64,000 nt of DNA from an archaeon SCG-AAA382B04 (lineage in GTDB: Archaea; Halobacteriota; Methanonatronarchaeia; Methanonatronarchaeales; Methanonatronarchaeaceae). The notes beneath the pieces are model-generated. The model saw only the letters and a list, made by a program, of their open reading frames with translations, had not been told where the DNA came from and did no database searches. Each line of letters starts with the position of its first letter. The first letter of the stretch is position 1. The translations under genes were made by a program, and so were the position numbers. Location of the stretch: NCBI GenBank assembly GCA_003034855.1, contig PZKD01000062.1:1-64000 (forward strand), given 5' to 3'. Positions 25,086 to 50,133 of the stretch are shown piece after piece.

Positions 25086-25141
25086 GAGATGGGCATTTCC
25101 CAAAAAAATTTATATGCTCGTATAATTTATTATTTAGCAAG

Positions 25142-25467: not shown

Positions 25468-25470
25468 AAA

Positions 25471-27962: not shown

Positions 27963-27997
27963 CCACGTGTTTTTACCCAAACCCGGGGCACAAAACC

Positions 27998-28874: not shown

Positions 28875-29375
28875 ATGAGCCGATACCCAATAACCGGTCC
28901 AACTAGAAGACTGGAAGAAAAAATAAATGGACAAAAGAAACCAAAGCCACAGAACCTAAAAGACAAACCATACACAAAAACCAACATAGTGCTTGCCTTA
29001 GTTGCAGAGAGAGGCGCAATCTGCTTGCACAAGGACAAGAGGGATTTCCAGGGGCAACAGGTCCTCAACGCAATCAGGGAGAGGCCAGAGTTCAAGGTGG
29101 ACAGGGACAAGGCATTAATCAGTTTGTATAATTACTTGAGCAGATTGAAGAACCAGAGATACGTTAAAAAAATCAAGGTCCTGAAAGCAGACGGAGAATA
29201 CAACAAAAAAACAGGAGCCTACGGCATCACAAAAAAGGGCTATCAAGAAGCTAATTGGCTAAAGAACCAGAGAAAACTTCCCCCTGATTTGTTGGATGCT
29301 ACTTTCGTTGACCCTAGCAGCAGGCGCTTTAGTGACAGGCGAGAAAACATCCTCATTAGGTTCACTCATCAGTAG
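28875..29375 (+). CDS. Predicted winged-helix protein of the element
   Basis: The 166-residue basic protein has a pattern seen in winged-helix domains: ALISLYNYLSRLKNQRYVKKI (recognition helix), then a hairpin and GAYGITKKGYQEANWL, similar to the closing strand and helix of MarR/PadR-type folds. I do not recognise a named family. Lying beside the palindrome-rich region suggests a replication initiator or regulator. Confidence 0.6.
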   Translation: MSRYPITGPTRRLEEKINGQKKPKPQNLKDKPYTKTNIVLALVAERGAICLHKDKRDFQGQQVLNAIRERPEFKVDRDKALISLYNYLSRLKNQRYVKKIKVLKADGEYNKKTGAYGITKKGYQEANWLKNQRKLPPDLLDATFVDPSSRRFSDRRENILIRFTHQ

Positions 29376-33844: not shown

Positions 33845-34690
33845 TTATCTCCTTAATTCTAGCCAAGGGATTTCACGCAAAACATCTAGGTTTGATTCTT
33901 TAGGGTGATTCCAGATTCCTTTTTCACCGAAGGCTTCACCATGATCGGAAGTAATTATAATTTTTTTATCGTTTTCTACTTCTTTAATTAGATTTGAAAC
34001 TGTTTTTAAAACTTTTTTTAGATTTTGTTTGTAGTAATACAAGATATCCCCTTTTCTGTAGGCTAATTCATCAGATTTGTTTGGCTCTAAATTTAGTTTT
34101 TTTCTTATCCACCAAATTTGTTTTTTTGATAGAGTTGAGTCAACTATTTTTCCTAATTGATCACGAAATGAACCGAGAAAACTATTATTCTCTATAGATT
34201 TTACTTCATTCTTTAATTTTTTAATAGAAACCATTTTTTGATGCTTTGGGGAATTTAGATAGGGTTTGTGGGGTTGCATATAATGCAATATGGTTTTGTT
34301 TTTTGGTTTTTGAGCGAAGTATTCGTTGTTTATGGTTCTTGGATGGATTGTGCCTAATTCATTGTTCCAATGTTTATCCCATGTGTCAACTATTTGAGTA
34401 AAGTGTTGTTTTGCATTCCAATTGTAGATACATTGGCTTATGTCAAAAGATTTTATGTTAATTCCTTTTGAATTTATATAGGGGTTTGCTGAGATATATG
34501 TGATGTCATGTTTTTGTTGAAAGATTTTATATAACCATTCGGGTGTACAACTAGCTGGACTCACTCTTTTTTCTAGTTCTCCACTTAAGTAATCGCTATA
34601 GACCTTTTTGAATACGTCGTATCTACAAGCGTCTAAGATTAAGCATATGTCCCATTCTTCCTTTAGTAGGTTCTGTTTTTTTGGAGTTAT
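33845..34690 (-). CDS. Thr-type alkaline-phosphatase-superfamily enzyme (island family), ATA start
   Basis: The frame continues upstream of GTG 34564 through LILDACRYDVFKKVYSDYLSGELEKRVSPASC-T-PEWL, so the full gene is about 281 residues. No ATG, GTG or TTG precedes the first catalytic motif; AGGAGG lies nine bases before ATA at 34690, which matches the start of the paralogues. Motifs are D in LDACRYD, Thr of the T-x-x-W-L nucleophile block, HYMQPHKPY and ITSDHGEAFGE. The superfamily uses two metals and covers phosphatases, phosphodiesterases and phosphotransferases. The substrate is unknown, probably a surface glycan or lipid. Confidence 0.75.
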   Translation of the reverse strand: MTPKKQNLLKEEWDICLILDACRYDVFKKVYSDYLSGELEKRVSPASCTPEWLYKIFQQKHDITYISANPYINSKGINIKSFDISQCIYNWNAKQHFTQIVDTWDKHWNNELGTIHPRTINNEYFAQKPKNKTILHYMQPHKPYLNSPKHQKMVSIKKLKNEVKSIENNSFLGSFRDQLGKIVDSTLSKKQIWWIRKKLNLEPNKSDELAYRKGDILYYYKQNLKKVLKTVSNLIKEVENDKKIIITSDHGEAFGEKGIWNHPKESNLDVLREIPWLELRR

Positions 34691-34712
34691 AGATTTAAAC
34701 CTCCTACTTTAG

Positions 34713-36023
34713 TTATAAATTTTTTAAATATTTTAAAACACTTCTTATACAGTCATCCATATTTAAATATTTGAATTCTGAAAATCGGCCTACTAGGTCT
34801 ATTCCTAATTCTTCAAAATAGTTTTTAGCTAATTTTCTGTTTATTGCATATTTTTTTGTGGGTATTATGTAAGCATATTTATTTCTTTTTAAGATTTCAA
34901 CTTCGGTTTTCTTATTGTTTATTATTCCTAATCTTATTAAGTCGTCTTTGACTTTATTTATGATTTTATTATCTTTTTTAGACCATATTTCATCGTTATA
35001 GTTGCACGTTATTTCTGCTAGAATTGAAGCTTTATTTTTAGGAGAGTTCTTCGGGCTATAATTGCTAGGGAAACTAACTCTATGAGATAAAACATCCTCC
35101 TGAGGCAAATAAAGCCATGATAAGTCTCCTTTACTTAAGTTTTCTTTATCTAAACCGATCATTACGGTAATAAGTGAATTAAACTTTAAATCATTTAAAG
35201 CGTTTTTAATTTTATTTGGAACCTTATCAAATGAATCTAAAAGATCGTGAATTGGAATTGTTGATATAAGTTTTTTAAACTCTTTTGTATTATTTTGACT
35301 ATAAACTCTCCATGTTGGGGGATCTTGTTGAATTTTTTCAACTTTGAAATTGGTATTTATTGGATTTGTAATTTTTTTTCTAAGTGATTTAATAATTGAC
35401 TGTATTCCTCCCTCTTTGGGGTAATAAAAATTAAGTTGATGAGTATAGCCTTCGATATCCATACCGATTGATGATTTTATTATTTCTTCTAAAGTTGGGT
35501 TTGGGATCCTTTTAACCCACTCTAATCCCATCTTTTTTGGAGGATGGTTCCATATCTTTTTATTGTAAGGTAAGAGATATTTTTTTGATATACCTTCCCC
35601 AAATTTGTTTATAAAGAAATCTTGCAAATTGTTTATTTCTTCCTTGTCTTCTCTATTCTGGATTTTCTTGTTAATATATGAATACAAACATTCAAAGTTA
35701 TCTTTTTTGGGTAAGTTTGATAATCCATATTCAAAAGGGTATTTCACAAACTTATTTTTAAACAGAATTTTGGTATTTCTTCTATTTTTTACTCTGTTTC
35801 CTTCGATTTGTTTTAATAAAAATGAAAGAGTTTCTTCATCTCTTGAAAAAAGAACATGGGAACCACCATAGTCAAAGGTGAATCCATTTTTTTCAATTGA
35901 TCTCATTAACCCACCACATTCCTCATTTTTTTCTAAAATTTCTGTACCATGTCCTCTTTTTTCTAAAAGATGTGCTAGTGTTAAGCCAGTTAATCCCCCC
36001 CCGAGTATTCCGATTTCTTTAAT
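34713..36023 (-). CDS. FAD-dependent UDP-galactopyranose-mutase/amine-oxidase-like protein, ATT start
   Basis: The open frame runs upstream of ATG 35906 through IKEIGILGGGLTGLTLAHLLEKRGHGTEILEKNEECGGLMR, the FAD-binding GxGxxG and second acidic strand, so about 436 residues are encoded. The first possible start after the TAA is ATT at 36023 (or ATA 36032), nine bases after CGGAGG. Downstream features such as YNKKIWNHPPKKMGLEWVKRIP and a C-terminal GRFSEFKYLNMDDC recall flavoenzymes of sugar-ring contraction and related oxidoreductases. It likely forms or modifies an NDP-sugar for the island glycan. Confidence 0.75.
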   Translation of the reverse strand: MKEIGILGGGLTGLTLAHLLEKRGHGTEILEKNEECGGLMRSIEKNGFTFDYGGSHVLFSRDEETLSFLLKQIEGNRVKNRRNTKILFKNKFVKYPFEYGLSNLPKKDNFECLYSYINKKIQNREDKEEINNLQDFFINKFGEGISKKYLLPYNKKIWNHPPKKMGLEWVKRIPNPTLEEIIKSSIGMDIEGYTHQLNFYYPKEGGIQSIIKSLRKKITNPINTNFKVEKIQQDPPTWRVYSQNNTKEFKKLISTIPIHDLLDSFDKVPNKIKNALNDLKFNSLITVMIGLDKENLSKGDLSWLYLPQEDVLSHRVSFPSNYSPKNSPKNKASILAEITCNYNDEIWSKKDNKIINKVKDDLIRLGIINNKKTEVEILKRNKYAYIIPTKKYAINRKLAKNYFEELGIDLVGRFSEFKYLNMDDCIRSVLKYLKNL

Positions 36024-36112
36024 TTTTTGTATCCTCCGATTTGAGTTAATAATTTTTATTTAATCTTTTATGGGAAGTTTTTTTGTTTTAAACGAAAAAT
36101 TTTAGATTATCT

Positions 36113-37069
36113 ATGATTGAAAGATATCCAATTGTTTCTATTGTAATAACTACTTGGGATAATAAAGAGATTTTGGAAAATTGTCTTGATTCAGTGAAAA
36201 ATTACACAAATTATCCAAGATATGAGGTAATAGTAGTTGATAATAACTCTAATGATGGAACCAGAGAGATGGTTGAAGAAAAATATCCTGAGGTTGAGTT
36301 TTTTTCGAGTGATGAAAAAATCTCTGTCCAAAAGGCGATTAATATTGGTATTAAAAAATCTAAGGGAGTTTTCTTACTTCATTTGGATGATGATATAGAG
36401 GCGATTCATGAGGACTGGTTAAATAATATGGTTGAGATAGCTCTGAAAAAGGAGAATGTAGGTCTTGTGGGTTGTAAATTACTATATCCAAATGGCGAAC
36501 TCCAGCATGGTGCCGGGAAGGTAACTATTATGGGCCCAAAGCATTATCAAAACGATAAGTATCTAAAGGAGTATCCTTTAGATCAGTCAGATTATGAATA
36601 TGTAACTGGAGCTTGTATCCTAATTCCTAAGAAAGTTATAGAAGATATTGGATACTTTGATGAAGGATTTAAACCCCATGGTTTCGATGATACCGACTAT
36701 TGTATGAGACTACATAAAAAAGGTTATAAAGTTATTTATACACCAAATTCGAAAATGATACATTATGAGGGGGTTTCTGGAGACCAAAAAAAATACACAC
36801 TCTTTGAGTTTTATAAATTTAAAAAAAACCAAATTAGGTTCGGATTATTAAATTTTAGAATTAAAGATTTATTGAAGTTTATATTATTAGAATTTTATTG
36901 GCTAGGTAGATGTTTTTTTGAGAAAAAAAATAAAAATTCTAGCTTATCAATACTAAACTTAAAGATCAGAGAGAGAGATAAAATTAAAAGATTGAAATTC
37001 TATTCCAGAGCAGTCTTTGAAAATATGAGTGATTTAATAGAAATAGCAAAAAAGAGAATAAAAAGATAA
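36113..37069 (+). CDS. Glycosyltransferase family 2 (rhamnosyltransferase-like)
   Basis: The 318-residue enzyme has VSIVITTWDNKEILENCLDSV, YEVIVVDNNSNDGT, the metal-binding LLHLDDDIEA near 90, YVTGACILIPKKVIEDIGYFDEGF near 165-185 and DDTDYCMRLHKKGYK. These are the GT-A motifs of WcaA/rhamnosyltransferase-type GT2. A basic C-terminal region may touch the membrane. It begins a rightward pair with the fused methyltransferase-phosphatase gene 35 bases on. Confidence 0.85.
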   Translation: MIERYPIVSIVITTWDNKEILENCLDSVKNYTNYPRYEVIVVDNNSNDGTREMVEEKYPEVEFFSSDEKISVQKAINIGIKKSKGVFLLHLDDDIEAIHEDWLNNMVEIALKKENVGLVGCKLLYPNGELQHGAGKVTIMGPKHYQNDKYLKEYPLDQSDYEYVTGACILIPKKVIEDIGYFDEGFKPHGFDDTDYCMRLHKKGYKVIYTPNSKMIHYEGVSGDQKKYTLFEFYKFKKNQIRFGLLNFRIKDLLKFILLEFYWLGRCFFEKKNKNSSLSILNLKIRERDKIKRLKFYSRAVFENMSDLIEIAKKRIKR

Positions 37070-37104
37070 ACGAAAAATTTCATTAAAAAATTGAAGAAGA
37101 TTGG

Positions 37105-38460
37105 GTGGAGAATAAAATATTGCAAACAAAAATTCCAAATACTCAAGTAGCAAAAACCATCCTTGAATTCTGTAGAGATAAAAAGGTGGTTAACTTAGGA
37201 TGTGGTGAAGATCAATATAGAGAACTATTTGAGGATATAACAAGTGATTATTTAACTCTTGATGTCAACAAGAGCTATCAACCCAATGTTTGGACCGATC
37301 TAAACGAGGGAATTCCAAGAGAAGTAAAAGAATTTGAACCACATGTCTTGTTTGCTAAAGAGACATTAGGTCACTTGGAAAATCCAGAGTATAGGATTAG
37401 TGAGTGGAAAGAAACGGCTCCTATGGTTATAGTAATCACTCCTACTCCTTGGTCTGAACATGACAATAAAAAACATAGTTTTGAAAAAAAATGGTTTACG
37501 GAGAATGATTTTGTTGTAAAGGGATATGACCCCCAAAAGCCACCCTTTGAAATTAGAAATTGCTTGGGATGGTATGGGATAGCTCTGAAGAACTTCACTC
37601 AAGCAAATTATTTTCTGGCAGTATATAGAGAAAATAGGCTATATTCTAGTACCCGAGAAAAAATATTCAAGAAGCTAATAGATCTTCCACTATCCCAGAT
37701 TTCTAAGATACATAAAAAACAACAAGATGAATTAAAGAAATTGGTTAAAGAAGATAAATATACTCTAATAATATTAGATGCCTGTAGATTCGATTACTTT
37801 AAAAAACTATATAAGAATTACATAGATGGTGAATTAAAAAAAGTAACTTCTCCAGCTTCTTGTACAAAAAATTGGCTAAAAGAAGTTGTAATAAAAAAAG
37901 AGATGTTTACTGATGCCCACTTGTACACGGCCACACCCGTAGTGAATTCATCCAACTGGTATTTCGGCCTCAATGGAAGAAATAAGTTTGAAAAAATACA
38001 TGACGTATGGAAAAAAGGTACAAAAGAGGTATATGAGCATCTTATTTATCCAAGCGATGTAAGGAGATACATAGAAAAGGAAATAAGGGAAGAAAATTTT
38101 CCAGATAAAAGCGTTATCTGGTTCATACAACCTCATACACCATTTTTAGGTGATACAAGATTAATAGACATAGAATCTCAAGAGGATTTAAAAGATTTCC
38201 CCCGAAATAGATACAACCCCCAAGTACTTGCAAGAAAAGTAAAAAAGGGGAAACTCTCAAGGAAAAAATACAAGGAAAGCTACGAAGAAAACCTAAAGTC
38301 AGTTCTGAGAGAAGTTAAAAATTTGGTAACTAGGATCGATGAAAAAACTGTCCTAACATCTGACCATGGGGAACTATTAGGTGAGTTTGGTGGATACCTA
38401 CATCCCCATTGGTTAAATTATCCTTGGCTAAGAACAGTTCCTTGGCTAAAAGTGAAATAA
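37105..38460 (+). CDS. Fusion: methyltransferase-like domain plus Thr-type AP-superfamily domain
   Basis: The 451-residue protein (GTG start) has an N-terminal Rossmann domain, about 10-190. It contains KKVVNLGCGEDQYRELF (AdoMet motif I) and LTLDVNKSYQPNVWTDLNEG, as in class I methyltransferases. A linker leads to TLIILDACRFDYFKKLYKNY, TSPASC-T-KNWL, WFIQPHTPFLGD and LTSDHGELLGEFGGY. The second half is a complete island-family phosphatase-superfamily domain with invariant D, Thr, H and DH ligands. The fusion suggests that both activities act on the same glycan. A GT2 gene precedes it. Confidence 0.8.
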   Translation: MENKILQTKIPNTQVAKTILEFCRDKKVVNLGCGEDQYRELFEDITSDYLTLDVNKSYQPNVWTDLNEGIPREVKEFEPHVLFAKETLGHLENPEYRISEWKETAPMVIVITPTPWSEHDNKKHSFEKKWFTENDFVVKGYDPQKPPFEIRNCLGWYGIALKNFTQANYFLAVYRENRLYSSTREKIFKKLIDLPLSQISKIHKKQQDELKKLVKEDKYTLIILDACRFDYFKKLYKNYIDGELKKVTSPASCTKNWLKEVVIKKEMFTDAHLYTATPVVNSSNWYFGLNGRNKFEKIHDVWKKGTKEVYEHLIYPSDVRRYIEKEIREENFPDKSVIWFIQPHTPFLGDTRLIDIESQEDLKDFPRNRYNPQVLARKVKKGKLSRKKYKESYEENLKSVLREVKNLVTRIDEKTVLTSDHGELLGEFGGYLHPHWLNYPWLRTVPWLKVK

Positions 38461-38497
38461 AAAAATTATTACTTTAAACTTTTAATTATTTAGTAAC

Positions 38498-38680
38498 CTA
38501 AAAAGGAAATTTGAGGATAGCTTTTTCTAAAGTTTTCGTGGCTTGCTTTAAAGCATAACCCAAATCTATCCTGGCATTCTTTTTTCCTTCACCAGAAGGG
38601 AGCACTAAGTTCTTTCTCTTAGCTCTTAACTTAACAGTGCTATTATAGGATACAAAAACCCAGAGATTATGTTTTTAGTA
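38498..38680 (-). pseudogene. C-terminal gene remnant next to the IS630 element
   Basis: On the minus strand a frame of about 58 codons, opened by a stop and without a plausible start, reads TVKLRAKRKNLVLPSGEGKK then ARIDLGYALKQATKTLEKAI, ending with TAG at 38498. It looks like the tail of a real protein, perhaps a transposase or nucleic-acid binding protein, that was cut by later insertions. The rest of 38461-38824 shows nothing else that I recognise. Confidence 0.35.
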
Positions 38681-38824
38681 ACCTGTCTTCCAGCTTTTCT
38701 CTTAAAAAAGAGGAGTCCTTTAGTAATACTTTTAACATTCATCTATATCAGAACTCACTTCATTTTTCCTGTTAATTCTTCAAACTTCAATCTCTTATCC
38801 TCAAGAAAACTTAAAAACAGAGAT

Positions 38825-39931
38825 TATAGTGTTGGACATAACTTTTATATGGTTTGTTGTTCTATTCTAGGGTATGCCTGGGGAGTATATCAAGGATGTT
38901 GAGAGATGGATAAGCAAAAAGGAACTCGTCGACCTAATAAAGGAGAAAAAGATAGAGGCAAAACTTCTTGAACGACTCTACTTCATAAAATTCTTGTATG
39001 AGGGAGACAATGTGCCAGAAGCCTCAGACAAAGTAGAAATATCGAATCAGACCGGATACAGATGGAGAAAAAAATGGAACAAGAAAGGAATAGAGGGACT
39101 AGAACCCGAATACGACGGAGGCCCCAAACCAAAACTAAAACTAAAGAAAAAAGAAAAGGAAGAACTAAAAGAAAAATTAAAGGAGAGAGACAACTGGACA
39201 ACCAGGGAGATAAAAAATCTAATAAAGGAGAGATTCGATGTGGAATACTCGTCAAGACACACAAGAAGAATTCTAGAGGAGATGGGAATGAAAAACGGAA
39301 AACCATATCAGCAAGACCACAGAAGACCAGAAAACGCAGAACAACAACTAAAAAAAACTGAGAAAAAACAAAAAGAAAACTGAAGAACAAAACAAAGAGG
39401 AAACCATAATTGGATTCCTAGATGAATCCTCACCCCAAACAACGGCAAACACCCAACGATTATGGTCCTTCCATAAGCCAAAGGTAAAGAAGAACACAAC
39501 AAAGAAGAGAGCAAACACATTCGGCTTCTACGCCCCAAACGGAGAAAGCATGGTCGACTTCAAAGAGAAATCAACAAAGGAAAGCGTCTGCAAGTTTCTA
39601 AGACAGATAAGAAAAGCAAACCCAAATAGAAAAATACTAACAATCCTCGATAACTTCAGCTCACACCATGCAAAAAAGACTAGAAGCGTAGCAAAAGAAC
39701 TCAATATCACCTTAATGTTTCTGCCACCCTACCCACCCGACCTCAACCCAATAGAATACATATGGAAAAGCATAAAGAGAAAACTCTCTCCCCAACTCAT
39801 AAACACAGAAGAAGAGCTAAAAACAAAAGTCGAGAAACACTTCAACAAATTCAGCAAAGACATAAGCTACGCCAAAAAATGGCTAAAAACCTTCTATCCA
39901 AAACCAAACAAAAGTTATGTCTAACACTATA
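38825..39931 (+). mobile_element. IS630-family insertion sequence
   Basis: The ends form a 22-base inverted repeat with one mismatch: TATAGTGTTGGACATAACTTTT at 38825-38846 against AAAAGTTATGTCTAACACTATA at 39910-39931. Both start with TA, the IS630/Tc1 target dinucleotide. The 1107-base length and the transposase inside agree with the family. It lies between the fusion gene and the radical SAM gene. Confidence 0.92.
38874..39924 (+). CDS. IS630 transposase in two reading frames
   Basis: Frame A (38874-39383) encodes the N-terminal HTH half: an IRLERLYFIK helix and EISNQTGYRWRKKWN, then a winged-helix stretch NWTTREIKNLIKERF. Frame B, open from about 39350, encodes GFLDESSPQTTANTQRLW, then ILTILDNFSSHHAKKTRSVA and LPPYPPDLNPIEYIWKSIK, the DDE triad region of IS630. 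Frame B lies +1 relative to A, and the overlap is an A-rich run at about 39350-39380. Either programmed frameshifting yields one 350-residue protein, or a one-base indel inactivated the gene. Confidence 0.85.
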
Positions 39932-39958
39932 CTTAATACTCCTGAAATTAGTTCTTAA

Positions 39959-41029
39959 TTAAACTTGTGCATTGTTGTCATAGCAAATTTGACAAATTAG
40001 TTCACTGTCCTTAATATCATCCCCACTAACTATCTGTCTTGCTTGTTGATATTTTTCATTATTCCATATCTCTTTTAGTGGCTTATCTTTTACATTTCCA
40101 AAATCAAATTTTTCAAACCATGCACTACAACAAGGACTTACACTTCCATTTGGATTGATGGTACATTTCTCCCAAAGCCACCCACAGTCGTCTTCAAGTT
40201 TATGTTTCTCTTTTTTTCCCTCTTTTTTATAGTTATACCTAGAAAATTCTTCTTTTTTTGGTAACCATTCTTTAGCATCTTTAAATTGTTCATTTTCATC
40301 CATAAATAACTCCTTCTCCATATTACATCGGAGTGGGCTTATCTCAAACCTATCAATACCTATTTTATCAGCAATTTCTTCTGCTTTTTTTATTTCATCT
40401 TCATTATATTTGTTAACGAGAAATCTCCATTGAACAAAAGGGTAAACTTTTCCAGCATTGTTTCTTTTTTTAATAACTTTCTTCATATTTTTAATGACAG
40501 TAGTAAAATTACTACCTTCATGATATTTTTCAACCGTTTTTTGACTCGCACCAAAAAGCGAAATCATTAATACATCAGGAGGGTTTTCAATTAATTTTTT
40601 ACAAATTCCTTCATTGAAGTGATTCAAATTAGTACTTAATTTAACAAATATCCCATAATCCCGGGCTAATTCTATCATATCGAATATTTTAGGATTAAGT
40701 AATGGTTCCCCCCAGTTATGAAAATCAATATGACTTACGTAAGGACCAATCTCTGAAATCAACTTTTTATATAAGGAAAAACTCATTGTGCTTTTGGTTC
40801 TCCCCTCCTTATTCTTACCTGTAGGACAGAGCTTACAATTAATATTGCATTTATTTATGGGATCAATTGTTATCTCTCTTGGATACCCCAACACTTTAGT
40901 AGGTTTTAATTTTCTTTGAATTCTTGTCAATACTGTATTAATAGCTCTCCTAGGAGGCCATAACAGAGAAAGCTTATATTGGAGGTGAAGACGTATTTTC
41001 TTAAAAATTGAATTTTTACTTTTAATCAT
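39959..41029 (-). CDS. Radical SAM protein with SPASM domain
   Basis: The 356-residue protein has a basic N-terminus, then CNINCKLC (C-x3-C-x2-C, Fe-S/SAM cluster) near 62, a TIM-barrel core with IDFHNWGEPLL, and a C-terminal SPASM region with CGWLWEKCTINPNGSVSPCC...CQIC. Such enzymes modify sugars, peptides or nucleoside diphosphates by radical chemistry. In this setting it probably alters a sugar nucleotide or glycan. It abuts the IS630 right end by 27 bases. Confidence 0.85.
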   Translation of the reverse strand: MIKSKNSIFKKIRLHLQYKLSLLWPPRRAINTVLTRIQRKLKPTKVLGYPREITIDPINKCNINCKLCPTGKNKEGRTKSTMSFSLYKKLISEIGPYVSHIDFHNWGEPLLNPKIFDMIELARDYGIFVKLSTNLNHFNEGICKKLIENPPDVLMISLFGASQKTVEKYHEGSNFTTVIKNMKKVIKKRNNAGKVYPFVQWRFLVNKYNEDEIKKAEEIADKIGIDRFEISPLRCNMEKELFMDENEQFKDAKEWLPKKEEFSRYNYKKEGKKEKHKLEDDCGWLWEKCTINPNGSVSPCCSAWFEKFDFGNVKDKPLKEIWNNEKYQQARQIVSGDDIKDSELICQICYDNNAQV

Positions 41030-41169
41030 CTCCTTTGAACCTCTTTTATTAAATTAGCTTTAAATCATAATAGGGCTTAGTGCAAATTGATACTGTTTAG
41101 TTAAGTGCTCGTCCTATCAAATGTTTTCCATTTTAGGCTCTTGATACTTCCTTATGCGGTTATGGTAGG

Positions 41170-42783
41170 GACAAAACTCTAACTATCTGTTGGTGCTGAA
41201 CCTTTATGTAACAGTCGTTTTTCAGAGATTTTGTCTACTTGTAGAAGAACAGGAAATATAATAAAATTCAACACAAATGGGATGTTATTCGACGAAGAAA
41301 TTATGGAAAAAGCCATAGAGGAAAAGGGGTATTCTATAGCTTTTTCAATGGATGGAGCAACTCCATTAACAAACAATTCTATTAGAAAAGGCTCAAAGAT
41401 GAACTATGTTCTAGATACTATAAATAAAATACAAAATAAAAAAGAAACAAAAAATAGCCAACTACTCAAACTCGAGGTTGTTTTTGTTGGAATGAGTCGA
41501 AACATCGAAGAGTTACTCTAACTAATAGATTTATTATCTGACTACAACGTTGGCACCTTAAAAGTTAATGGGCTGGAATCATTCTCCCTGAGATGCAGGA
41601 ACAACTTCTTTATAAGCACCAATTAGGGAAAGAATATGGAAAGCGGATTAGAGTTAACTTATTTTACCACAATAAGCTACGAACTGCGCCTGCTCTGGTA
41701 AGCCTCCCCCCAACTTATTAGTCGCTTATAAATAAACTCGAACATTTTTTTGTGAAAAAGATGAAAAGGTGGTATCGGAAGGTAAATCCCAACGATGTCG
41801 ATCATTTTAAGATCCCCAAATATGCTTTTTACCTCTGAAGGCTGATATTCTCTTTTATGGTTTCCTACAACCTTTTCTCTGCCTAGTATTCTGTTCAGAA
41901 GATTGTCTGGGTTTGGTGTTGTAATGATAACCTTGCCTTTATCTCTCAAAACCCTTTTCACTTCTGAAACAAATTTTCCGATTGAGTTCTCATTGATATG
42001 TTCTATTACTTCAAAAAGTGTGACCACATCAAATGTGTCATCCTTAAGTGGTAAATCGGCAGCCGATCCTAACATAAAACTACAATTTTCTTTGCAAACT
42101 AGATTTTCTGCATACCTTATCCCGCTCTCTGATTTGTCTACCCCCACCACTCTTTTACATATATCGGCTATTTTATCCGTTAAAAACCCATCTCCGCAAC
42201 CTAAATCCAAAACGGAGTCATCGGAGTCAATGTGTTTTCCTCCAAAATTCACCCTTGCAAATTCTATAGCAAGATCTTTTCCTTTCACATTCCCTTTGTA
42301 TGGAGTTTTATAATCAATCATTTCTTTATATGGAGTTTTATAATCAGTCATTATATATCACAAAGTATGCTTTATTGAATAAATAATGTTTTTATTCTTT
42401 AAGCCCAACTGAGAACAAAATCCGAGAGGATTTATTCTAAAGCTAGTGAAAGAGCCCAGAGCTTGGACCTAGATTTAAATCTGCCAGCTTTGAAGCCAAC
42501 TAACCCAAAGTGTGAAGTAGGAACCCTTGTAGTTGATTCAGGGGGGAATGTTTTCCCCTGCACAGTTCTACAATTTGAAAGAGACATTTATTTACAGATT
42601 AATGATGGAAAGATAGTTGAAGAAAAGGCAACTCATAAAAGAACCCCTCTCGGTAATATAAGAAAAAATGATATTTAAGGAAATATATAAAAATTTCCTT
42701 GGATTTAAAAAGAAGTTGAATAAGGATAGTTTTCCTGAAGTTTGCGATACTTGTCTCATGAAGCATAACTTAATCTGCCCCTG
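41170..42783 (+). pseudogene. Radical SAM/SPASM gene, broken and interrupted
   Basis: The piece at 41231-41521 reads IKFNTNGMLFDEEIMEKAIEEKGYS then IAFSMDGATPLTNNSIRKGS and NIEELL, the middle of a radical SAM barrel. After a stop the same strand continues with YNVGTLKVNGLESF up to about 41650. The SPASM end appears at 42463-42678 (CEVGTLVVDSGGNVFPCTVL, GNIRKNDI) and, one frame over, at about 42700-42783 (FPEVCDTCLMKHNLICP). The leftward methyltransferase gene lies between the halves, so the gene was split and has decayed. Confidence 0.8.
41677..42351 (-). CDS. Class I SAM-dependent methyltransferase
   Basis: The 224-residue enzyme has SVLDLGCGDGFLTDKIADIC (motif I), VVGVDKSE, SAADLPLKDDTFDVVTLFEVIEHI and GKVIITTPNPDNLLNR, the UbiE/Methyltransf_11 layout. 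Its first codons contain a perfect duplication (DYKTPYKEMI then DYKTPYKG), so ATG at about 42321 (MIDYKTPYKGN) may be the original start. It sits inside the split radical SAM gene. The target is unknown, presumably a sugar or lipid. Confidence 0.8.
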   Translation of the reverse strand: MTDYKTPYKEMIDYKTPYKGNVKGKDLAIEFARVNFGGKHIDSDDSVLDLGCGDGFLTDKIADICKRVVGVDKSESGIRYAENLVCKENCSFMLGSAADLPLKDDTFDVVTLFEVIEHINENSIGKFVSEVKRVLRDKGKVIITTPNPDNLLNRILGREKVVGNHKREYQPSEVKSIFGDLKMIDIVGIYLPIPPFHLFHKKMFEFIYKRLISWGEAYQSRRSS

Positions 42784-42831
42784 AATTAAAAGAGTTTATA
42801 TCAATGCAATTAAAATTATACATACGATAGA

Positions 42832-43056
42832 ATGAAGAAGGAAGAAACTGTTAATATACCTATTAAAAAGAAGTTGTATGAGAAAACAGAGAAATTGATT
42901 TCAAATACAAAATTTAATTCAGTGGAGGAATACCTGAATTTTGCTCTTGAAGAAGTATTTTTAGAAAGAAAAGAACTTGAAGAGGAGACTAAAAATTCAA
43001 GCTCCAAAGATGAAGAAAAGATAAAAAATCGCTTGAAAGAGCTTGGATATGAGTGA
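42832..43056 (+). CDS. Ribbon-helix-helix (CopG-like) protein preceding phosphatase array
   Basis: The 74-residue protein has ETVNIPIKKKLYEKTEKLISNTKFNSVEEYLNFALEEVFLE, a beta strand and two helices as in RHH regulators, then an acidic linker and KNRLKELGYE. Small RHH proteins of this type are often paired with AP-superfamily genes, and a truncated tail of a similar protein (KKRLKKLGYLNEED) precedes the paralogous gene at 48.2 kb. It may regulate the array or act as its partner. Confidence 0.7.
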   Translation: MKKEETVNIPIKKKLYEKTEKLISNTKFNSVEEYLNFALEEVFLERKELEEETKNSSSKDEEKIKNRLKELGYE

Positions 43057-43179
43057 GGTTGGCGAAAGAGTATTTTTTTGAAAAAAATTAATGCTAGTTA
43101 TCTTGTACCTATGTCGAGGACAGTATAAAGAAAAATTTTTACCCCTCCCTCTAGCTACTTTAGAAATGGTTGTGGTTTG

Positions 43180-43977
43180 ATGGAAAGACAGAAAAAGCTT
43201 ATCGAGAAAAAAGAATGGGATTATCTATTAATATTAGATGCCTGTAGATACGATTATTTAAAGGATTTAAATAGAAAAGAGAAATTCGGAAAACTTCATA
43301 AAGTGAAGCCAAATAGTAATGATACTCCTACATGGTTGAAAAAAACATTTGATAGAAAACATGATGACATAATCTATGTCTCGGCGAATCCTTTTATTAA
43401 CTCTAAAAGCGTGGAAACTGTTAAGGGATTTGACGCATCAAACATATTTTTTGACGTTATCGATGTGTGGGAAAAGGGATGGAAAGAAGATGATAAAACT
43501 GTTCCTCCTCAAGAGATGAGAAAGGAAATTATAAAAGCTAATGAAAAGTATAAGAATAAAAAGATTATAGGTCATTTTATGCAACCCCACACTCCTTACC
43601 TTTCCTTAGGCCCCGTGGATGGAGGAATTTCGAGATCTAAGAAAGCCACTTTAAAGAAACAAAAAATAAATGTTCTAAATAATATAAAAAGCTCTATGGC
43701 TCAAGCTTTAAAACTGAGGAAGCTTTATAGTAAGCTTATACATATTCTGGGCATAAACAAAAATCAGGTAGGAAAAGTGGCAGAAAGATATGGTGTTGAT
43801 GGTCTGAGAAAAGCTTATAAGGAAAATCTTGAGATTGCCCTAAAGGAAATTAAAATAATGCTTAAATATCTAAATGGGGATATAGTAATCTCTTCAGATC
43901 ATGGTGAATGGCTGGGTGAAAATAATAAGTTTGGCCATGCTCGAATGAAACTTCCATGGTTGGAAGTGAAAAAATGA
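43180..43977 (+). CDS. Thr-type AP-superfamily enzyme, tandem copy 1
   Basis: ATG at 43180 follows a TTG; the product is about 265 residues. It has the family motifs LLILDACRYDYLKDL, DT-P-T-WLKKTF (Thr nucleophile block), YVSANPFINS, HFMQPHTPYLSLG and VISSDHGEWLGENN, ending LPWLEVKK. The final P-W-L-E motif is shared by all paralogues. The two adjacent genes downstream overlap at their ends, so the three are translated from one message. No signal peptide is visible, implying a cytoplasmic enzyme or lipid-phase substrate. Confidence 0.8.
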   Translation: MERQKKLIEKKEWDYLLILDACRYDYLKDLNRKEKFGKLHKVKPNSNDTPTWLKKTFDRKHDDIIYVSANPFINSKSVETVKGFDASNIFFDVIDVWEKGWKEDDKTVPPQEMRKEIIKANEKYKNKKIIGHFMQPHTPYLSLGPVDGGISRSKKATLKKQKINVLNNIKSSMAQALKLRKLYSKLIHILGINKNQVGKVAERYGVDGLRKAYKENLEIALKEIKIMLKYLNGDIVISSDHGEWLGENNKFGHARMKLPWLEVKK

Positions 43978-44861
43978 ACAAAGAAGCGGTACCAAGACAA
44001 GAAAAATTGATTAAAGAAAGAGATTGGGACATATTAATCATATTAGATGCCTGTAGATATGATGTCTTTCTCTCTATTTATGAGGAATTTCTAAAAGGTG
44101 ACCTTACAAGGGTTAAATCGCCCGCAGCTGCAACTGAACCTTGGTTAAATTCAGTTTTTGAGAATAATTATTCAGATACAATTTATGTTTCCGGCAACCC
44201 CCATGTTTCTCAAATCGGTAAAAAAAACTTTAGAAAGATTTTTTTTAAAGTTGAGGATGTTTGGGATTATGGTTGGGAGAAGATTAATGGAATCCCAACT
44301 GTTCCACCACAAAATATCTCTCAAAAACTAATTGAAAATTTAGTTAAGTTTCCAGAAAAAAAGATAATAGCTCACTATATGCAGCCTCACGCACCCTATG
44401 TTGGAAACGAAAAATTGGCACTAGGCGGCTCTCAACAATGGTTGAGGAAAAGGGCAAAGGAGGAAGGGATTTTAGGTATACTTAATTCAAAAATACCAAA
44501 AAAAGCAAAAAATATCATTGGGTCTTCACTTCTTGGAAAAGCAATAGATAGAATTGGGATAAAGATGAGTAAGAATGAATGGAATAAGGATCCCATAGGA
44601 ATGAAAGATGCAATAGATAGATATGGCTTAAATAAGGTTAAAAGAGCTTATCAAGAAAACTTAAAACTGGTTTTAAATGATGTCAAATCTAACCTTGAAA
44701 AGGTTTTGAGGTTTAAGGAAAAAGTAGTTATATCTTCTGATCATGGTGATTTGTTTGGTGAAAAGGGTTTGTATGGCCATCCTAAAGATAGTGGTTACAA
44801 TCAACACCCTGAGCTTTATCATGTTCCATGGCTCGAGGTAGAAAATGATGAATTCAGATGA
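43974..44861 (+). CDS. Thr-type AP-superfamily enzyme, tandem copy 2
   Basis: I place the start at ATG 43974, inside the previous stop (ATGA), for about 295 residues. Motifs are IIILDACRYDVFLSIYEEF, KSPAAA-T-EPWLNSVF, YVSGNPHVSQ, HYMQPHAPYVG and VISSDHGDLFGEKGLYGHP. It is longer than copy 1 in the region after the QPH motif, where the family varies most, suggesting that this insert contacts substrate. Confidence 0.8.
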   Translation: MNKEAVPRQEKLIKERDWDILIILDACRYDVFLSIYEEFLKGDLTRVKSPAAATEPWLNSVFENNYSDTIYVSGNPHVSQIGKKNFRKIFFKVEDVWDYGWEKINGIPTVPPQNISQKLIENLVKFPEKKIIAHYMQPHAPYVGNEKLALGGSQQWLRKRAKEEGILGILNSKIPKKAKNIIGSSLLGKAIDRIGIKMSKNEWNKDPIGMKDAIDRYGLNKVKRAYQENLKLVLNDVKSNLEKVLRFKEKVVISSDHGDLFGEKGLYGHPKDSGYNQHPELYHVPWLEVENDEFR

Positions 44862-45684
44862 GTTAAAGAAACAACAGCCATTAATCCATGAAGAATCTTG
44901 GAACTATCTTATAATTTTAGACGCATGTAGGTATGATTATTTTTCGGCCATCCATGATTCTTTTTTAGAAGGTGACCTCATTAAGGTCGAATCTCCAGCA
45001 ACTGGAACCCCTAACTGGCTAGAAAAGACGTTTAGTAGTAAATTTTTGGAGGATGTGGTTTACTTATCAGCAAATCCATATGTTAACTCGGTAGATATTG
45101 AAGTTGCGGATGGATTTAATGCTAAAAACCATTTTGGGGAGATTATAGACTTATGGGATAGATGTTGGAAAGAAGATTTGAAAACAGTGCCTCCCGACGA
45201 AGTGGTTGAGGGATCTCTTTCTCATATAGAAAATCAACAAAATAAAAAGTATATAATTCATTTTATGCAACCTCATGCACCTTATTTGAAACTAAAAACG
45301 GTAGGAGAGGGTATAAGCGGAATTACGAGAAGAGCAAAAGGAAACACTTCATTAATGATAAGAGAATATATTGGTAAGTTAGTTGAAAGTGCCTTTCCCT
45401 CCCCAACTATTGATAAAATTCGAAAGAAACTTAATTTAAAAAAACCAGGACCTGAAAAACTAGTCGCAGAGAAATTTGGAAAAGATACATTAAGAGAAGC
45501 TTATAAAGAAAACCTAGAATCAGTTTTAAAGGAAACTAAAACACTGATTAGAAACTTAAATGGAAAAATTATAATAACTTCAGATCATGGGGAATTGCTC
45601 GGAGAAAAAGATTTGTATGGTCATTGTGGCTCAAATAAAAATCCTATATTAAGAGAAGTTCCCTGGCTCGAAATTGTTAAATAA
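44845..45684 (+). CDS. Thr-type AP-superfamily enzyme, tandem copy 3
   Basis: The 279-residue protein overlaps copy 2 by 17 bases; the second ATG, at 44848, is an alternative start. Motifs are LIILDACRYDYFSAIHDSF, ESPATG-T-PNWLEKTF, YLSANPYVNS, HFMQPHAPYLKL and IITSDHGELLGEKDLYGH. It ends REVPWLEIVK. Three adjacent members of one family with diverged middles suggest parallel use on different acceptors. Confidence 0.8.
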   Translation: MMNSDELKKQQPLIHEESWNYLIILDACRYDYFSAIHDSFLEGDLIKVESPATGTPNWLEKTFSSKFLEDVVYLSANPYVNSVDIEVADGFNAKNHFGEIIDLWDRCWKEDLKTVPPDEVVEGSLSHIENQQNKKYIIHFMQPHAPYLKLKTVGEGISGITRRAKGNTSLMIREYIGKLVESAFPSPTIDKIRKKLNLKKPGPEKLVAEKFGKDTLREAYKENLESVLKETKTLIRNLNGKIIITSDHGELLGEKDLYGHCGSNKNPILREVPWLEIVK

Positions 45685-45717
45685 AGAATAGTCAAATTTG
45701 GATTTAATCTTCCGCTA

Positions 45718-47133
45718 TCAAATTAAATTCTTAGAAACCCTTATTACTATATTCTTTATTCTCTCACTCAAAAAAAACAAGCAACTAAAATAAATAATGC
45801 CTCCACTACCTACTAAGATAAGGATTTCAAACACATTTAATGGAAACAATAGAGAATTGAAAACATAAACAAAAAAACCCATTAAGGCTACAGAAAAGAA
45901 TTCGAACCCTATTTCTTTTCTTGGGAAATTCACAGTAATTAATTCTTGCGCATAATTAAACGACATTCCAGAAGCTATAATCAATGAAACCAAAGAAGCG
46001 AAGGAAGCCCCTATCCAGCCAAAAACGTAGATTAAAAAGATGTTTAATGTGATATTTAGAGATATAAGCACACTATTTACTTTAAACATTAAATCAGGCC
46101 TATCTAACCCATTTATGACATTCGAAAAAACTACTTCATAGCTTTGAAAAAACTTGGAACTTACTAAAACAACCAATACAATATATCCGATGCTGAATTC
46201 TTTTCCATAAATATTTAGTATAGAGGTTCCTAGTATTACTGCTCCAATAATTCCAGGAATAACAATTATTCCTGAAAAAATCAAAGCTTCCTCAAGAATA
46301 TCTTCTAGTTTGGAAATCTTACCTCGACTTGCAAGAGAACTAAAATTTGGAAACAATGACATCCCGATAGCATCTCCAACAAATAAAAATATGCCAGCCA
46401 AGCTCCAACAAACCTCATAGTAACCCACAAATTTTGGCAAAACAAAGAAACCAAGGACAAGGGAGTCCATCCACCCAACAATTGGCCCTCTCAAGCTCCC
46501 AATCCAGCTGTATTTTGAGAAAGAAAATATGCTTTTAAAATGCCTAAGCTGTGGTTTCTTAAAATTAATGGAGAGAATGAAAAATCCAACAATCACTGAA
46601 AGTAAGAGTCCAATAAAAAGGCCAGAGACTAGTGCCATCACTCCAAATCCGAGAAAGAGTAGAATCGCCCATGTTAAAACTCTCCCCCCATTTTGAATAA
46701 CTCCAAGAAAGGAGGATCTTGCAACTTTTTTCTCTCCAATCAAACCTGATCTAAGTGAGGTTCTAACTACCTCTAAAAACAAAACCAGTAAAAGAAAGGG
46801 AAAAACATCTTCATTACCTATATAATCCACTATTTTTCCCTTGAAAAGTATAAGAATAATAGCGACTAAGCTGAACAGAATAATTTTCGAGATCAGAGTT
46901 GCAGTTAAGAAATTCCCTCTTTCTTTTTCCTCACTAACCCTTTTTCCACCAGCACCACTAACACCCAAATCTGTAAATAAGCTTGTGAGGTGGAAAACTG
47001 CATAAAATAGAAAATAAATCCCAAGGGCAGTAGCTCCAGCTATTCTAGCTGCTATAAGAGTACCTATAAAACCAACGGCTGCTATCCCTATTTTAGATAT
47101 AAATACACCTATTGAAGACTTTGCTATATCCAT
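45718..47133 (-). CDS. Polysaccharide flippase (Wzx / MOP superfamily)
   Basis: The 471-residue protein has about 12-14 membrane segments, with the typical N-terminal start GVFISKIGIAAVGFIGTLIAARIAG...ALGIYFLFYAVFHL and a loop GLDRPDLMFKVNSVL. It would move lipid-linked sugars across the membrane. It heads a leftward group with a GT4 and another phosphatase-family enzyme upstream. Confidence 0.88.
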   Translation of the reverse strand: MDIAKSSIGVFISKIGIAAVGFIGTLIAARIAGATALGIYFLFYAVFHLTSLFTDLGVSGAGGKRVSEEKERGNFLTATLISKIILFSLVAIILILFKGKIVDYIGNEDVFPFLLLVLFLEVVRTSLRSGLIGEKKVARSSFLGVIQNGGRVLTWAILLFLGFGVMALVSGLFIGLLLSVIVGFFILSINFKKPQLRHFKSIFSFSKYSWIGSLRGPIVGWMDSLVLGFFVLPKFVGYYEVCWSLAGIFLFVGDAIGMSLFPNFSSLASRGKISKLEDILEEALIFSGIIVIPGIIGAVILGTSILNIYGKEFSIGYIVLVVLVSSKFFQSYEVVFSNVINGLDRPDLMFKVNSVLISLNITLNIFLIYVFGWIGASFASLVSLIIASGMSFNYAQELITVNFPRKEIGFEFFSVALMGFFVYVFNSLLFPLNVFEILILVGSGGIIYFSCLFFLSERIKNIVIRVSKNLI

Positions 47134-47177
47134 CTACATTCCCTTTATATATGAATAGTTATATATGAATAGAGAAT

Positions 47178-48251
47178 TTATTTTTTCTTGGTTGCAACTC
47201 TTTTGTAAAGTTTTTTATGTTTTTTTGCTGCTGATTTCCAGCTTGTTGCAAATTCCCAGCTTTTAAATCCCAATTTCTTCCTTAAATCCTTATTTGAAAG
47301 GAGCTTGCAAATAGCATCATTAAGTGAATCACTATCTTTGGGAGGTACTTCGAGAGCAACTTTCTCACTTTTTAAGATATTTTCAGTAGTAATAACTGGT
47401 TTTCCGTAACCAGCAACTTTGTTTAATGGGCCACATTCATGAATACCTTCTCCCTCACGAGTGTAAGGAAAAACACAAATTTTAGCTTTTTTTATTTTCT
47501 CATTTAGTTTTGGTTCTTCGAGGAAACCGGTGAAAGAAATACAATCCTCTAATCTTAGATCTCTTACCTTTTTTTTCAAGTATTTTAAATACGACTCTCC
47601 CTGCTCATCTTCAGGGTGGGGGGAACCAACTACCTCCAGATCTACGTTAAATTTTCTTTTAACCTTATTCATAGCTTCAATCAAATATTCCACTCCCTTT
47701 CCATTTGACAAAAAGCCGAAGAAAAGAATTTTGTTTCTCTCACCTACATCGTATGGTTCTTTTGCTTTTTCAGTTCCATGAGATATAACTTCTGTTTCCT
47801 TAATTCTGTAATCACTTTCCATTATCTTCCTGCTTTCTTCGTTATGAACTATAACAGCTGAGGACTTGGATAATAACCTAGTAGCTAAATTTCGTGCACT
47901 TCTTTTTAATAAAGTAGTATCTTCACTATCTTTAGGAAAAACTAAATGCATCGTTACAATGGTTGGATATCCTTGTAGTTCTAGGAGTAATGGAAGAGTT
48001 AATGGCTGGACTGAAAATATAGACTTTCCATACAACATGTATTCATATTGTAAATGAACGATATCAGGATCATCACTTCTAACTTTTTTAATAACTTTGA
48101 TAAGGAATTTAGGAGAACTTTTGCTCCAAAAACGTTGATCAATCAATTTAGTATCTAATCCCAAATCATCAAATCTATCAACAAGCTTAGAAATATAATT
48201 AGCCACTCCACATTTGGCAGGAGGATAAGTGGAGATTATATCAATCTTCAT
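47178..48251 (-). CDS. Glycosyltransferase family 4
   Basis: The 357-residue GT-B enzyme opens MKIDIISTYPPAKCGVANYISKLVD. It has FFGFLSNGKGVEYLIEAM, GFLEEPKLNEKIKKAKICVFPYTREGEGIHECGPLNKVAGYGKPV and a C-terminal helix. The GIHE...GKPV segment deviates from the usual E-x7-E but fits a mannosyltransferase-like subgroup. It overlaps the phosphatase gene upstream by 11 bases. Confidence 0.85.
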   Translation of the reverse strand: MKIDIISTYPPAKCGVANYISKLVDRFDDLGLDTKLIDQRFWSKSSPKFLIKVIKKVRSDDPDIVHLQYEYMLYGKSIFSVQPLTLPLLLELQGYPTIVTMHLVFPKDSEDTTLLKRSARNLATRLLSKSSAVIVHNEESRKIMESDYRIKETEVISHGTEKAKEPYDVGERNKILFFGFLSNGKGVEYLIEAMNKVKRKFNVDLEVVGSPHPEDEQGESYLKYLKKKVRDLRLEDCISFTGFLEEPKLNEKIKKAKICVFPYTREGEGIHECGPLNKVAGYGKPVITTENILKSEKVALEVPPKDSDSLNDAICKLLSNKDLRKKLGFKSWEFATSWKSAAKKHKKLYKRVATKKK

Positions 48252-49119
48252 TTTCTACCTCGAGCCATGGAACATGATAAAGCTCAGGATATTCTTCGTA
48301 GGCTAGTCCAGATTGATGGCCAAAAGGCCATCTAAATAGTTCTCCATGATCAGCAGTTATTACTATATTTTTTCGTTTTGATTCTTGTATCAAGTTCGAA
48401 ACCTCTTCTAAGACCATCTTTAGGTTTCCTCTATATGCTCTTTTAATTTTAGAGGGAGAAACTAGTTCTTTTCTAAGAGCCTCTGACATTGTAGACGCAA
48501 CTTGACCTTGTTTTTTTTCTGTCAATTTAAGAAGAAAGTCATCGATTTTGTGTCCTGTTTCGTTTAGTATTTTTCTTATATATGGAGATGAATTCTTTAG
48601 GGTTGTTATAAGTTTTCTCACATGATTTATTTGTAAAAATTTAATCAAAGGATTTTTAATTTTTTTCCTCATCGTAGGAGCTACACTTTCTACAGAAAGT
48701 TTCACATCTCCAACATAGGGTGCATGGGGCTGGAGGAAGTGGGCGACAAATCTTTTGTTTTTGTGTTTTTTAGAGTTACGTATAATAGCTTTTGAAACCT
48801 CAGAAGGCGGGGTGGTTGGAATTCCATCAATATCTTTCCAACCATAATCCCACACCGAATCTACATTAAAGAAGTGATCCTTGCCTTTCCACTCCTGTAA
48901 ACCATAAGTTTGAGGATTTCCTGAAGTATAAATTGTATTTTCATAATAATCAGGAAACACTTTTTCGAGCCATTCATCCGTTTTTCCTGCAGGCGATTTA
49001 ACCTTTTCTAACTTACCATCAATCCAGTTGACTTCCTCAAATATGTCATATCTACAGGCATCTAATATGATTAGTAAATCCCACTTGTTGTTGTGAATAA
49101 GGTCAGTTTGTTCTTTTAT
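48241..49119 (-). CDS. Thr-type AP-superfamily enzyme with apparent ATA start
   Basis: The frame is open upstream of ATG 48960 through TIKEQTDLIHNNKWDLLIILDACRYDIFEEVNW and KSPAGK-T-DEWLEKVF up to ATA 49119, which follows GGAGG by seven bases. A TGA lies eight codons before, with no ATG, GTG or TTG between. The paralogues start at the same position with ATG. Other motifs are YTSGNPQTY, HFLQPHAPYVGD and VITADHGELFRWPFGHQ. The normal GE after DHG is changed to ELFRWPFG, so activity may differ. Confidence 0.75.
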   Translation of the reverse strand: MKEQTDLIHNNKWDLLIILDACRYDIFEEVNWIDGKLEKVKSPAGKTDEWLEKVFPDYYENTIYTSGNPQTYGLQEWKGKDHFFNVDSVWDYGWKDIDGIPTTPPSEVSKAIIRNSKKHKNKRFVAHFLQPHAPYVGDVKLSVESVAPTMRKKIKNPLIKFLQINHVRKLITTLKNSSPYIRKILNETGHKIDDFLLKLTEKKQGQVASTMSEALRKELVSPSKIKRAYRGNLKMVLEEVSNLIQESKRKNIVITADHGELFRWPFGHQSGLAYEEYPELYHVPWLEVENED

Positions 49120-49241: not shown

Positions 49242-50132
49242 TTACTCACCACCTTGTAATTTATTATTTAACCGCCCTATTAAATAACCTAAACTATAAG
49301 TTAAATCTGATGCCGGAACTAATAGATAAATAAAATCTCTTTTATTTATGGCGAGGTAAAGGATTGCAGCAATTCTTCCGAGATAGAGTAAAGCAAGAGG
49401 CATAACTAGGATAGTTAAAAGAGTTATTGGAATAGAAATAAGAGAAATAAAGAGTAGAAGGAACAGTAAATCTCTTCTAATACTGTATCTGGTTTCGCCA
49501 ACCCATAAAGCTTGTTTAAATAAATCATAAAAGGAATGTACCTTGTGATAGTAACTTGTTGCGTCAATTTTCTTTACTTCTATTCCTTCCTCTCTTAACT
49601 TTCTGTCGAGGTCAAGGTCTTCTCCATATCTTGTAGTCGTAAAACCACCAACCTCCTTAAATAAACTTTTTCTTAAGGCCATTATAAGTTTAGGTTGCTC
49701 CTTTCTGAGCATGAAAAGATTTAAACGATGAAAACGGTTGAAAAGCTTTTCAGATAATGTATCTTCAACTGGTTCGTTTTTCCAAGTAATTGCATCAGCT
49801 CCATCTCTAAAAGCCTCTCTAACTTTTTCCAAGAAATTTGGGCTTAAATGATCTAAGTCCCCTTCTAGAAAAAGAACTATTTTACCTTCTGATAACTCAA
49901 CACCTTGGTTTTTAGCGTTTGCAGGACTCTTATTCCCACCTATTTCATCAAATACTTTGCAATTATATTTCTCTGCAATTTCTTTGGTTCTATCATCTGA
50001 TCCTCCGTCAATAACTAGAATTTCGTGAGGAACCTCGGTCTTTCTTACGCTTTCTAGAATCCCTGCTAGAGTTTCCTCATCATTTAAAGTAGGAATTATG
50101 ATTGATATCTTGTCGACTTCCATAATTTTCAC
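49242..50132 (-). CDS. Membrane-anchored glycosyltransferase family 2
   Basis: The 296-residue protein has SIIIPTLNDEETLAGILESV, ILVIDGGSDDRT, KIVLFLEGDLDHLSP (metal site) and TRYGEDLDLDRKLREEG. Two hydrophobic segments near residues 220-265 follow. Enzymes of this form transfer sugars to lipid carriers at the membrane. It precedes the radical SAM gene by one base, so both come from one transcript. Confidence 0.85.
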   Translation of the reverse strand: MKIMEVDKISIIIPTLNDEETLAGILESVRKTEVPHEILVIDGGSDDRTKEIAEKYNCKVFDEIGGNKSPANAKNQGVELSEGKIVLFLEGDLDHLSPNFLEKVREAFRDGADAITWKNEPVEDTLSEKLFNRFHRLNLFMLRKEQPKLIMALRKSLFKEVGGFTTTRYGEDLDLDRKLREEGIEVKKIDATSYYHKVHSFYDLFKQALWVGETRYSIRRDLLFLLLFISLISIPITLLTILVMPLALLYLGRIAAILYLAINKRDFIYLLVPASDLTYSLGYLIGRLNNKLQGGE

Positions 50133-50133
50133 T

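Follow-up and report, generated by a model that had tools for sequence, protein, structure and literature searches.

The Methanonatronarchaeaceae are halophilic methyl-reducing methanogens. In the genome of one member, the archaeon SCG-AAA382B04 (1.42 Mb, 93% complete), positions 1 to 64000 of contig C45 (PZKD01000062.1; this whole stretch is referred to as the window) contain a glycan island with six genes sharing the motif LDACR(Y/F)D, raising the question of what chemistry so many related enzymes carry out, and on what. Our analysis suggests that these LDACRYD proteins form a soluble, compact lineage within the alkaline phosphatase (AP) superfamily, with an active site like that of EptA/MCR and LtaS, and we see about an even chance that they pass a phospho-group via phospho-Thr onto cytosolic glycan intermediates. 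Genes are named here by their lowest coordinate (Table 1), and residues are numbered as in the 44845 protein, the reference for the structure model.

The six genes and their predicted active site

The six open reading frames (ORFs) are true homologues, of 266 to 301 aa except for one that is a domain of ~250 aa in a fusion protein. When they were compared all-against-all with the 147 window ORFs at a threshold of E <= 1e-3, each retrieved only the other five, with E values from 3e-26 to 2e-67. As identity to the 44845 protein is just 37 to 46%, the window copies are old paralogues. All six carry the common motifs listed in the initial annotation (LDACR(Y/F)D, TxxWL, QPHxP(Y/F), DHG, and a terminal PWLE/K), and the invariant columns include D26, A27, C28, R29, D31, T55, W58, L59, Q142, P143, H144, P146, D247, H248, G249, H260, P273, W274, and L275. 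No family in Pfam, NCBIfam, PHROGs, or PADLOC matched the six above its cut-off. The window proteins score at most 23 bits against PF00884 (Sulfatase; curated cut-off, 25), which only a copy on contig C40 passes (25.5), and at most 15 bits against the EptA model NF028537 (NCBIfam cut-off, 500). The literature searched yielded no paper on the family, and hence no experimental work on it.

Membership in the AP superfamily, which had been read from the motifs, is borne out by AlphaFold models with pLDDT values of 89 and 92, whose top structural neighbors are all AP-superfamily enzymes. For the 44845 protein (AlphaFold2 model built on 74 sequences; pLDDT 89.3, pTM 0.86), the first sixteen structural neighbors all belong to the EptA/EptC/MCR/ICR group, with concordant results from Foldseek; the best match is 4kav (Z 17.4, 2.4 A over 197 residues, 19% identity). 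The next neighbors, at Z ~15, are choline sulfatase, other sulfatases, and phosphonate monoester hydrolases. The model of a phage member of the family (pLDDT 92.1) also matches EptA best (Z 15.1, 194 residues) and has LtaS (2w5q) among its neighbors at Z 12.2. The phosphodiesterase or phosphotransferase chemistry suggested initially is supported, with EptA, MCR, and ICR being the nearest folds.

In MCR-1, the Zn1 ligands are Glu246, Thr285, Asp465, and His466, the Zn2 ligands are His395 and His478, and Thr285 sits at the start of a helix (PMC5175174). In the 44845 model, T55 opens helix 55-63, and D26 corresponds to Glu246, since the MCR-1 alignment pairs model residue 18 with residue 238. The sequence blocks of E. 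coli EptA (GETSRAENF / SCGTAT / HTIGSHGPTY / SDHGESLGENGIYLH) and of the family (LDACRYDYF / SPATGT / HFMQPHAPY / SDHGELLGEKDLYGH) occur in identical order, with the same His-His spacing of 5 (H-x4-H-x-P) and the same distance of 12 from DH to the last His. On the model, D26, D247, and H248 thus correspond to predicted metal ligands, T55 at a helix N-cap to the nucleophile, and H144 and H260 to second-site residues; R29 and H139 would also belong to the site. Among 96 cellular members, D26, R29, D31, H144, D247, H248, and H260 are conserved in all and H139 in 95. T55, which aligns with the nucleophile Thr of EptA and MCR-1, is Thr in 95 of the 96 (Ser in one) and in 33 of 34 viral members; neither T55 nor the last His nor DHG had been included in the search patterns by which the family was collected. 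Structural alignment and motif spacing thus place Thr, not Cys or Ser, at the nucleophile site, as had been expected from the motifs. Because a PDB-sequence profile search matched mainly the C-terminal DHG part, the Thr is assigned from the structural match together with the motif spacing; with hhalign, just 72 C-terminal columns aligned to four E. coli Ept proteins. The further claim that Thr is the only invariant nucleophile candidate does not hold, as Cys28 of DACR is likewise invariant in all six proteins and in 94 of 96 relatives. Its position is in the metal-binding DACR block, where it aligns with the Ser of the EptA motif ETSR.

The initial annotation stated that most of the six lack signal peptides; the absence is real and was understated, as no signal peptide was seen in any of them. 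Neither the six nor the 72 family members screened contain a transmembrane segment; the most hydrophobic 19-residue stretch averages at most 1.62 across the 72, and the highest scorers are internal. Given the lack of signal peptides and membrane segments, these proteins are expected to act in the cytosol.

The likeness to EptA, EptC, MCR, and ICR therefore lies in the core fold, the Thr at a helix N-cap, the D and H of DHG as metal ligands, the equally spaced second-site His pair, and the correspondence of ETSR to DACR, whereas the LDACRYD proteins have no membrane domain and no conserved disulfides, are soluble with a catalytic core of 230 to 300 aa, carry Asp for the Glu ligand, and occur in a different gene context. 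LtaS and the phosphoglycerol transferases share the superfamily and the Thr type of nucleophile, and yet LtaS is membrane anchored and extracellular, and no glycerol-phosphate polymer genes were seen at LDACRYD genes. By sequence profile the closest proteins are Thr-type archaeal PF00884 "sulfatases" (e.g., L063:6180-7766; 98%, E 2e-14, 178 columns), with the nucleophile motif APWT and the same DHGExxGExxxxxH as in the family, although these are about twice as long and have a C-terminal domain. PF01663 type I phosphodiesterases (NPP) share the superfamily, the Thr nucleophile, and common gene neighborhoods but have the motif DAAT, and none of the six matches PF01663. The STM4013/SEN3800 family hydrolases (NF038075) are likewise compact soluble AP proteins of ~260 aa, to which the family has a weak C-terminal match (best E, 1.4e-6), but it scores at most 28 against a cut-off of 250.

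Transfer, hydrolysis, and rival chemistries

In the mechanism that we propose, a metal held by Asp26, Thr55, Asp247, and His248 would activate Thr55, which would attack a phosphodiester or pyrophosphate donor to give a phospho-Thr intermediate, its phosphate being held by Arg29 and by His144 and His260, perhaps together with a second metal. Still in the cytosol, and ahead of export by a flippase, the phospho-linked group would then be handed to a sugar hydroxyl of a glycan intermediate carried on a nucleotide or a lipid. The variable segment that follows QPHxPY and precedes the C-terminal part probably gives the paralogues different donors or acceptors. We infer the metal and the phospho-Thr intermediate from the AP superfamily and, more weakly, the cytosolic transfer to a glycan sugar ahead of the flippase.

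Several findings weigh against such a transfer. No enzyme that would make a donor accompanies the family consistently; the three CDP-alcohol phosphatidyltransferases in the genome show that ordinary phospholipid donors exist, and nothing more. EptA, LtaS, and the other characterized transferases of the group are membrane anchored and use extracytoplasmic lipid donors, whereas the LDACRYD proteins are soluble. At the first metal-ligand position they have Asp, which sulfatases and phosphonate hydrolases also use, rather than the Glu of EptA, and the closest proteins by sequence profile are the Thr-type archaeal PF00884 proteins and not EptA. Two copies (on contigs C40 and C56) lie outside glycan loci. 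Finally, a common fold and a Thr nucleophile do not discriminate transfer from hydrolysis. The same phospho-Thr chemistry with water as acceptor would make these proteins cytosolic phosphodiesterases or phosphatases that edit, recycle, or proofread nucleotide-sugars, polyprenyl-phosphate sugars, or phosphodiester-linked glycan intermediates. We regard this as a serious contender, though a less probable one than transfer: it is compatible with the Thr nucleophile and the soluble location, it fits the Asp ligand and the phosphonate monoester hydrolases as next fold neighbors, and PF01663 genes are frequent neighbors (9 of 110 flanking genes, and four on contig C45). However, the nearest folds belong to transferases, EptA has a matching His pair, and the presence of eight copies on a single contig, including an overlapping tandem of three, suggests many distinct building steps over a single editing step.

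Other readings fare worse. Sulfatases acting on the sulfated glycans of a halophile are very improbable, although some plasmid homologues are annotated as sulfatase-like, PF00884 matches weakly, and the glycans of haloarchaea can carry sulfate (PMC11980604). The near-universal Thr is not convertible to formylglycine, the C/S-x-P/A-x-R motif is absent near the site, and the genome contains no formylglycine-generating enzyme (FGE; PF03781), no anaerobic sulfatase-maturing enzyme (anSME) above cut-off (best score against TIGR03942, 84.6 bits versus 349), and no Sulfotransfer_3. Because FGE is lacking and no sulfatase-maturing enzyme passes its cut-off, formylglycine sulfatase chemistry is very unlikely, in agreement with the initial annotation. 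For the two radical S-adenosylmethionine (SAM)/SPASM proteins in the window, the listed families include no sulfatase-maturase model, and the matches to other radical SAM families fall far below cut-off. APS kinase matches are marginal P-loop matches of ~50 residues and uninformative about sulfation. Phosphomutase-type AP enzymes (DeoB and iPGM-like), which shift phosphate within a sugar phosphate, are known as soluble cytosolic AP enzymes, and the 33845 protein weakly matches the NCBIfam DeoB model (E 0.0015); but the DeoB matches are confined to the DHG region, the second-site residues are EptA-like rather than the full two-metal mutase set, and many paralogues in glycan clusters would be unexpected for mutases, so that we consider this reading improbable. 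Least probable of all is a role in defense as PglZ-like AP proteins of BREX: PglZ does match weakly over ~40 residues around DHG, but the match is limited to this superfamily region (PADLOC E 0.0085 or worse; PglZ profile, 19 bits against a cut-off of 25), and no BREX genes were seen around family genes, whose neighbors are glycan genes.

Copies, relatives, and viral members

The description of an expanded family proved apt: the genome has ten copies, six in the window and four elsewhere, of which eight are intact. Contig C45 holds eight of the copies and four PF01663 genes spanning C45:53558-96247, i.e., twelve AP-superfamily genes. The frameshift in the C56 copy could reflect phase variation, decay, or an assembly error. 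Intact paralogues of the copy split by a transposase gene persist elsewhere in the genome.

Among 60 relative genomes, 12 have the family, with up to 18 matches, and the other 48 have none, a patchy distribution. One carrier is "Ca. Methanohalarchaeum thermophilum" HMET1 (L009, MSDW01000002). A species-level genome collection yielded 382 family loci in many archaeal phyla, Planctomycetota, and Calditrichota. Homologues on haloarchaeal plasmids are annotated "hypothetical protein," "sulfatase-like hydrolase/transferase," or "LTA synthase family protein." In the tree, the window copies do not group as one recent expansion: the 33845 gene clusters with HMET1 copies, 43956 pairs with 48241 (SH-aLRT 99; 93 once viral rows were added), 43177 pairs with 44845, and the C40 copy falls inside a haloarchaeal/nanohaloarchaeal clade. 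Because the C40 and C56 copies lie outside the island and the paralogues are not one recent clade, a tailoring set for one surface polymer, as initially proposed, is just one possibility.

The family is also encoded on 32 IMG/VR contigs (L120-L151), one of which (L124) carries two copies; INPHARED phages gave no family match. The viral core is shorter (median, 236 aa versus 285 in cells) with the identical catalytic set. On L125 and L126, the family gene runs opposite to the surrounding head genes and adjoins the head maturation protease gene, with a portal gene also present on L125, and on L124 and L134 it lies amid glycosyltransferase, epimerase, B12-radical-SAM, and aminotransferase genes. 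As viral members are scattered over several places in the tree, repeated transfer is likely, though the well-supported branches are compatible with a single origin. Contig L121 may be misassigned archaeal DNA, as its copy is 51% identical to a Methanohalarchaeum copy.

The superfamily and its chemistry are already known. Judged by the libraries and papers searched, the novelty lies in a soluble, compact form having an EptA-like site, in its spread over archaea, Planctomycetota, and viral contigs, and in its expansion in a halophilic methanogen. Bacteria are known to tailor their surface glycans through phosphodiesters. We advance, as a tentative and rather doubtful generalization, that an unnamed cytosolic phosphotransferase family of archaea, planctomycetes, and virus contigs installs phosphodiester-linked glycan substituents before export and that diverged copies in hosts and phages vary surface glycans, including single phage genes in head modules that would alter the receptor. 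If true, phosphodiester glycan tailoring would reach a broad range of archaea via soluble pre-export enzymes unlike EptA and LtaS, the misleading names "sulfatase" and "LTA synthase" would be replaced on hundreds of genes, and AP genes on phage contigs would gain a testable function. The active-site map opens the way to simple mutants and assays.

Genomic context

The features of the island and the copies elsewhere are collected in Table 1. The N-domain of the 37105 fusion resembles the product of another window gene, the Methyltransf_23 gene at 57970 (32% over 74 aa, E 8e-4), and the AP domain of the fusion is diverged and shortened. More distant in the window is an STT3/AglB oligosaccharyltransferase gene at 7702.

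Table 1. Features of the glycan island and family copies elsewhere in the genome
Feature	Position	Strand	Remarks
LDACRYD-family AP enzyme, ~281 aa	33845..34690	-	Apparent ATA start after AGGAGG; T in SPASCTPEWL; closest relatives in Ca. Methanohalarchaeum
FAD-dependent UDP-galactopyranose-mutase (UGM)/protoporphyrinogen-oxidase-like protein	34713..36023	-	Apparent ATT start
Family 2 glycosyltransferase	36113..37069	+	Directly upstream of 37105 fusion
Fusion, methyltransferase-like N-domain (~190 aa) and LDACRFD-family AP domain (37690-38460)	37105..38460	+	Motifs
SAM methyltransferase	41677..42351	-
LDACRYD-family AP enzyme, first of tandem trio overlapping head to tail	43177..43977	+	Motifs
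LDACRYD-family AP enzyme, second in tandem, overlapping both neighbors	43956..44861	+	Motifs; tree partner 48241
LDACRYD-family AP enzyme, third in tandem, structure reference	44845..45684	+	Motifs, model (D26, T55, H144, D247, H248, H260)
Flippase (Polysacc_synt, Wzx-like)	45718..47133	-
Family 4 glycosyltransferase	47178..48251	-	Adjoins 48241 gene
LDACRYD-family AP enzyme	48241..49119	-	Apparent ATA start after GGAGG; DHG-to-last-His segment 2 residues shorter
Three genes: family 2 glycosyltransferase, radical SAM/SPASM protein, family 4 glycosyltransferase	49242..52141	-
PF01663 type I phosphodiesterase, second kind of island AP enzyme	53549..54325	+	Motif DAAT; E 2.8e-14
Mannose-1-phosphate guanylyltransferase-like nucleotidyltransferase	54398..55435	-
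Family copy split by 539-aa transposase gene (L107:7788-9407)	C45:70450-73085 (L107:7451-10089)
Intact family copy	C45:78355
Intact orphan family copy	C40:1762
Family copy frameshifted in A-rich stretch	C56:77088-77925 (L109:5086-5926)

Elsewhere, the 110 genes flanking the family are led by glycosyltransferase group 1 (11), flippase (9), PF01663 (9), glycosyltransferase 2 (8), and methyltransferases (7), an enrichment that we gauge by how rare flippase genes generally are rather than against a background set. By a cruder method, a glycosyltransferase or flippase gene is within reach at 28 of 56 loci. In Natrinema, Natrialba, and Halostagnicola, the family gene adjoins a longer PF00884 gene, which likewise has Thr at the nucleophile position (APWT), and plasmids of Halostagnicola (L098) and Natrinema (L101) carry a conserved run of a lysylphosphatidylglycerol-synthase-TM gene, the longer Thr-type "sulfatase" gene, the LDACRYD gene, and two glycosyltransferase genes.

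The 33845 and 48241 genes have no ATG, GTG, or TTG upstream of LDACRYD; a Shine-Dalgarno sequence followed by ATA lies at 34690 and 49119 (minus strand), and the UGM-like gene has a Shine-Dalgarno sequence followed by ATT at 36023 (minus strand), with a profile match from residue 2. Beyond these three island genes, ~220 kb of the genome with 170 long ORFs yielded no convincing ATA or ATT start, the other listed cases resembling chance sites within ORFs or having a normal start close by. Between two family genes, at 38874-39924, lies a transposase in two ORFs (an HTH_32/HTH_33 half and a DDE-like half), probably an IS630-type element. Farther away, at 23619-29375, a tRNA-Arg, an integrase-like gene, and a primase/helicase-like gene stand in a row in what looks like an integrated element.

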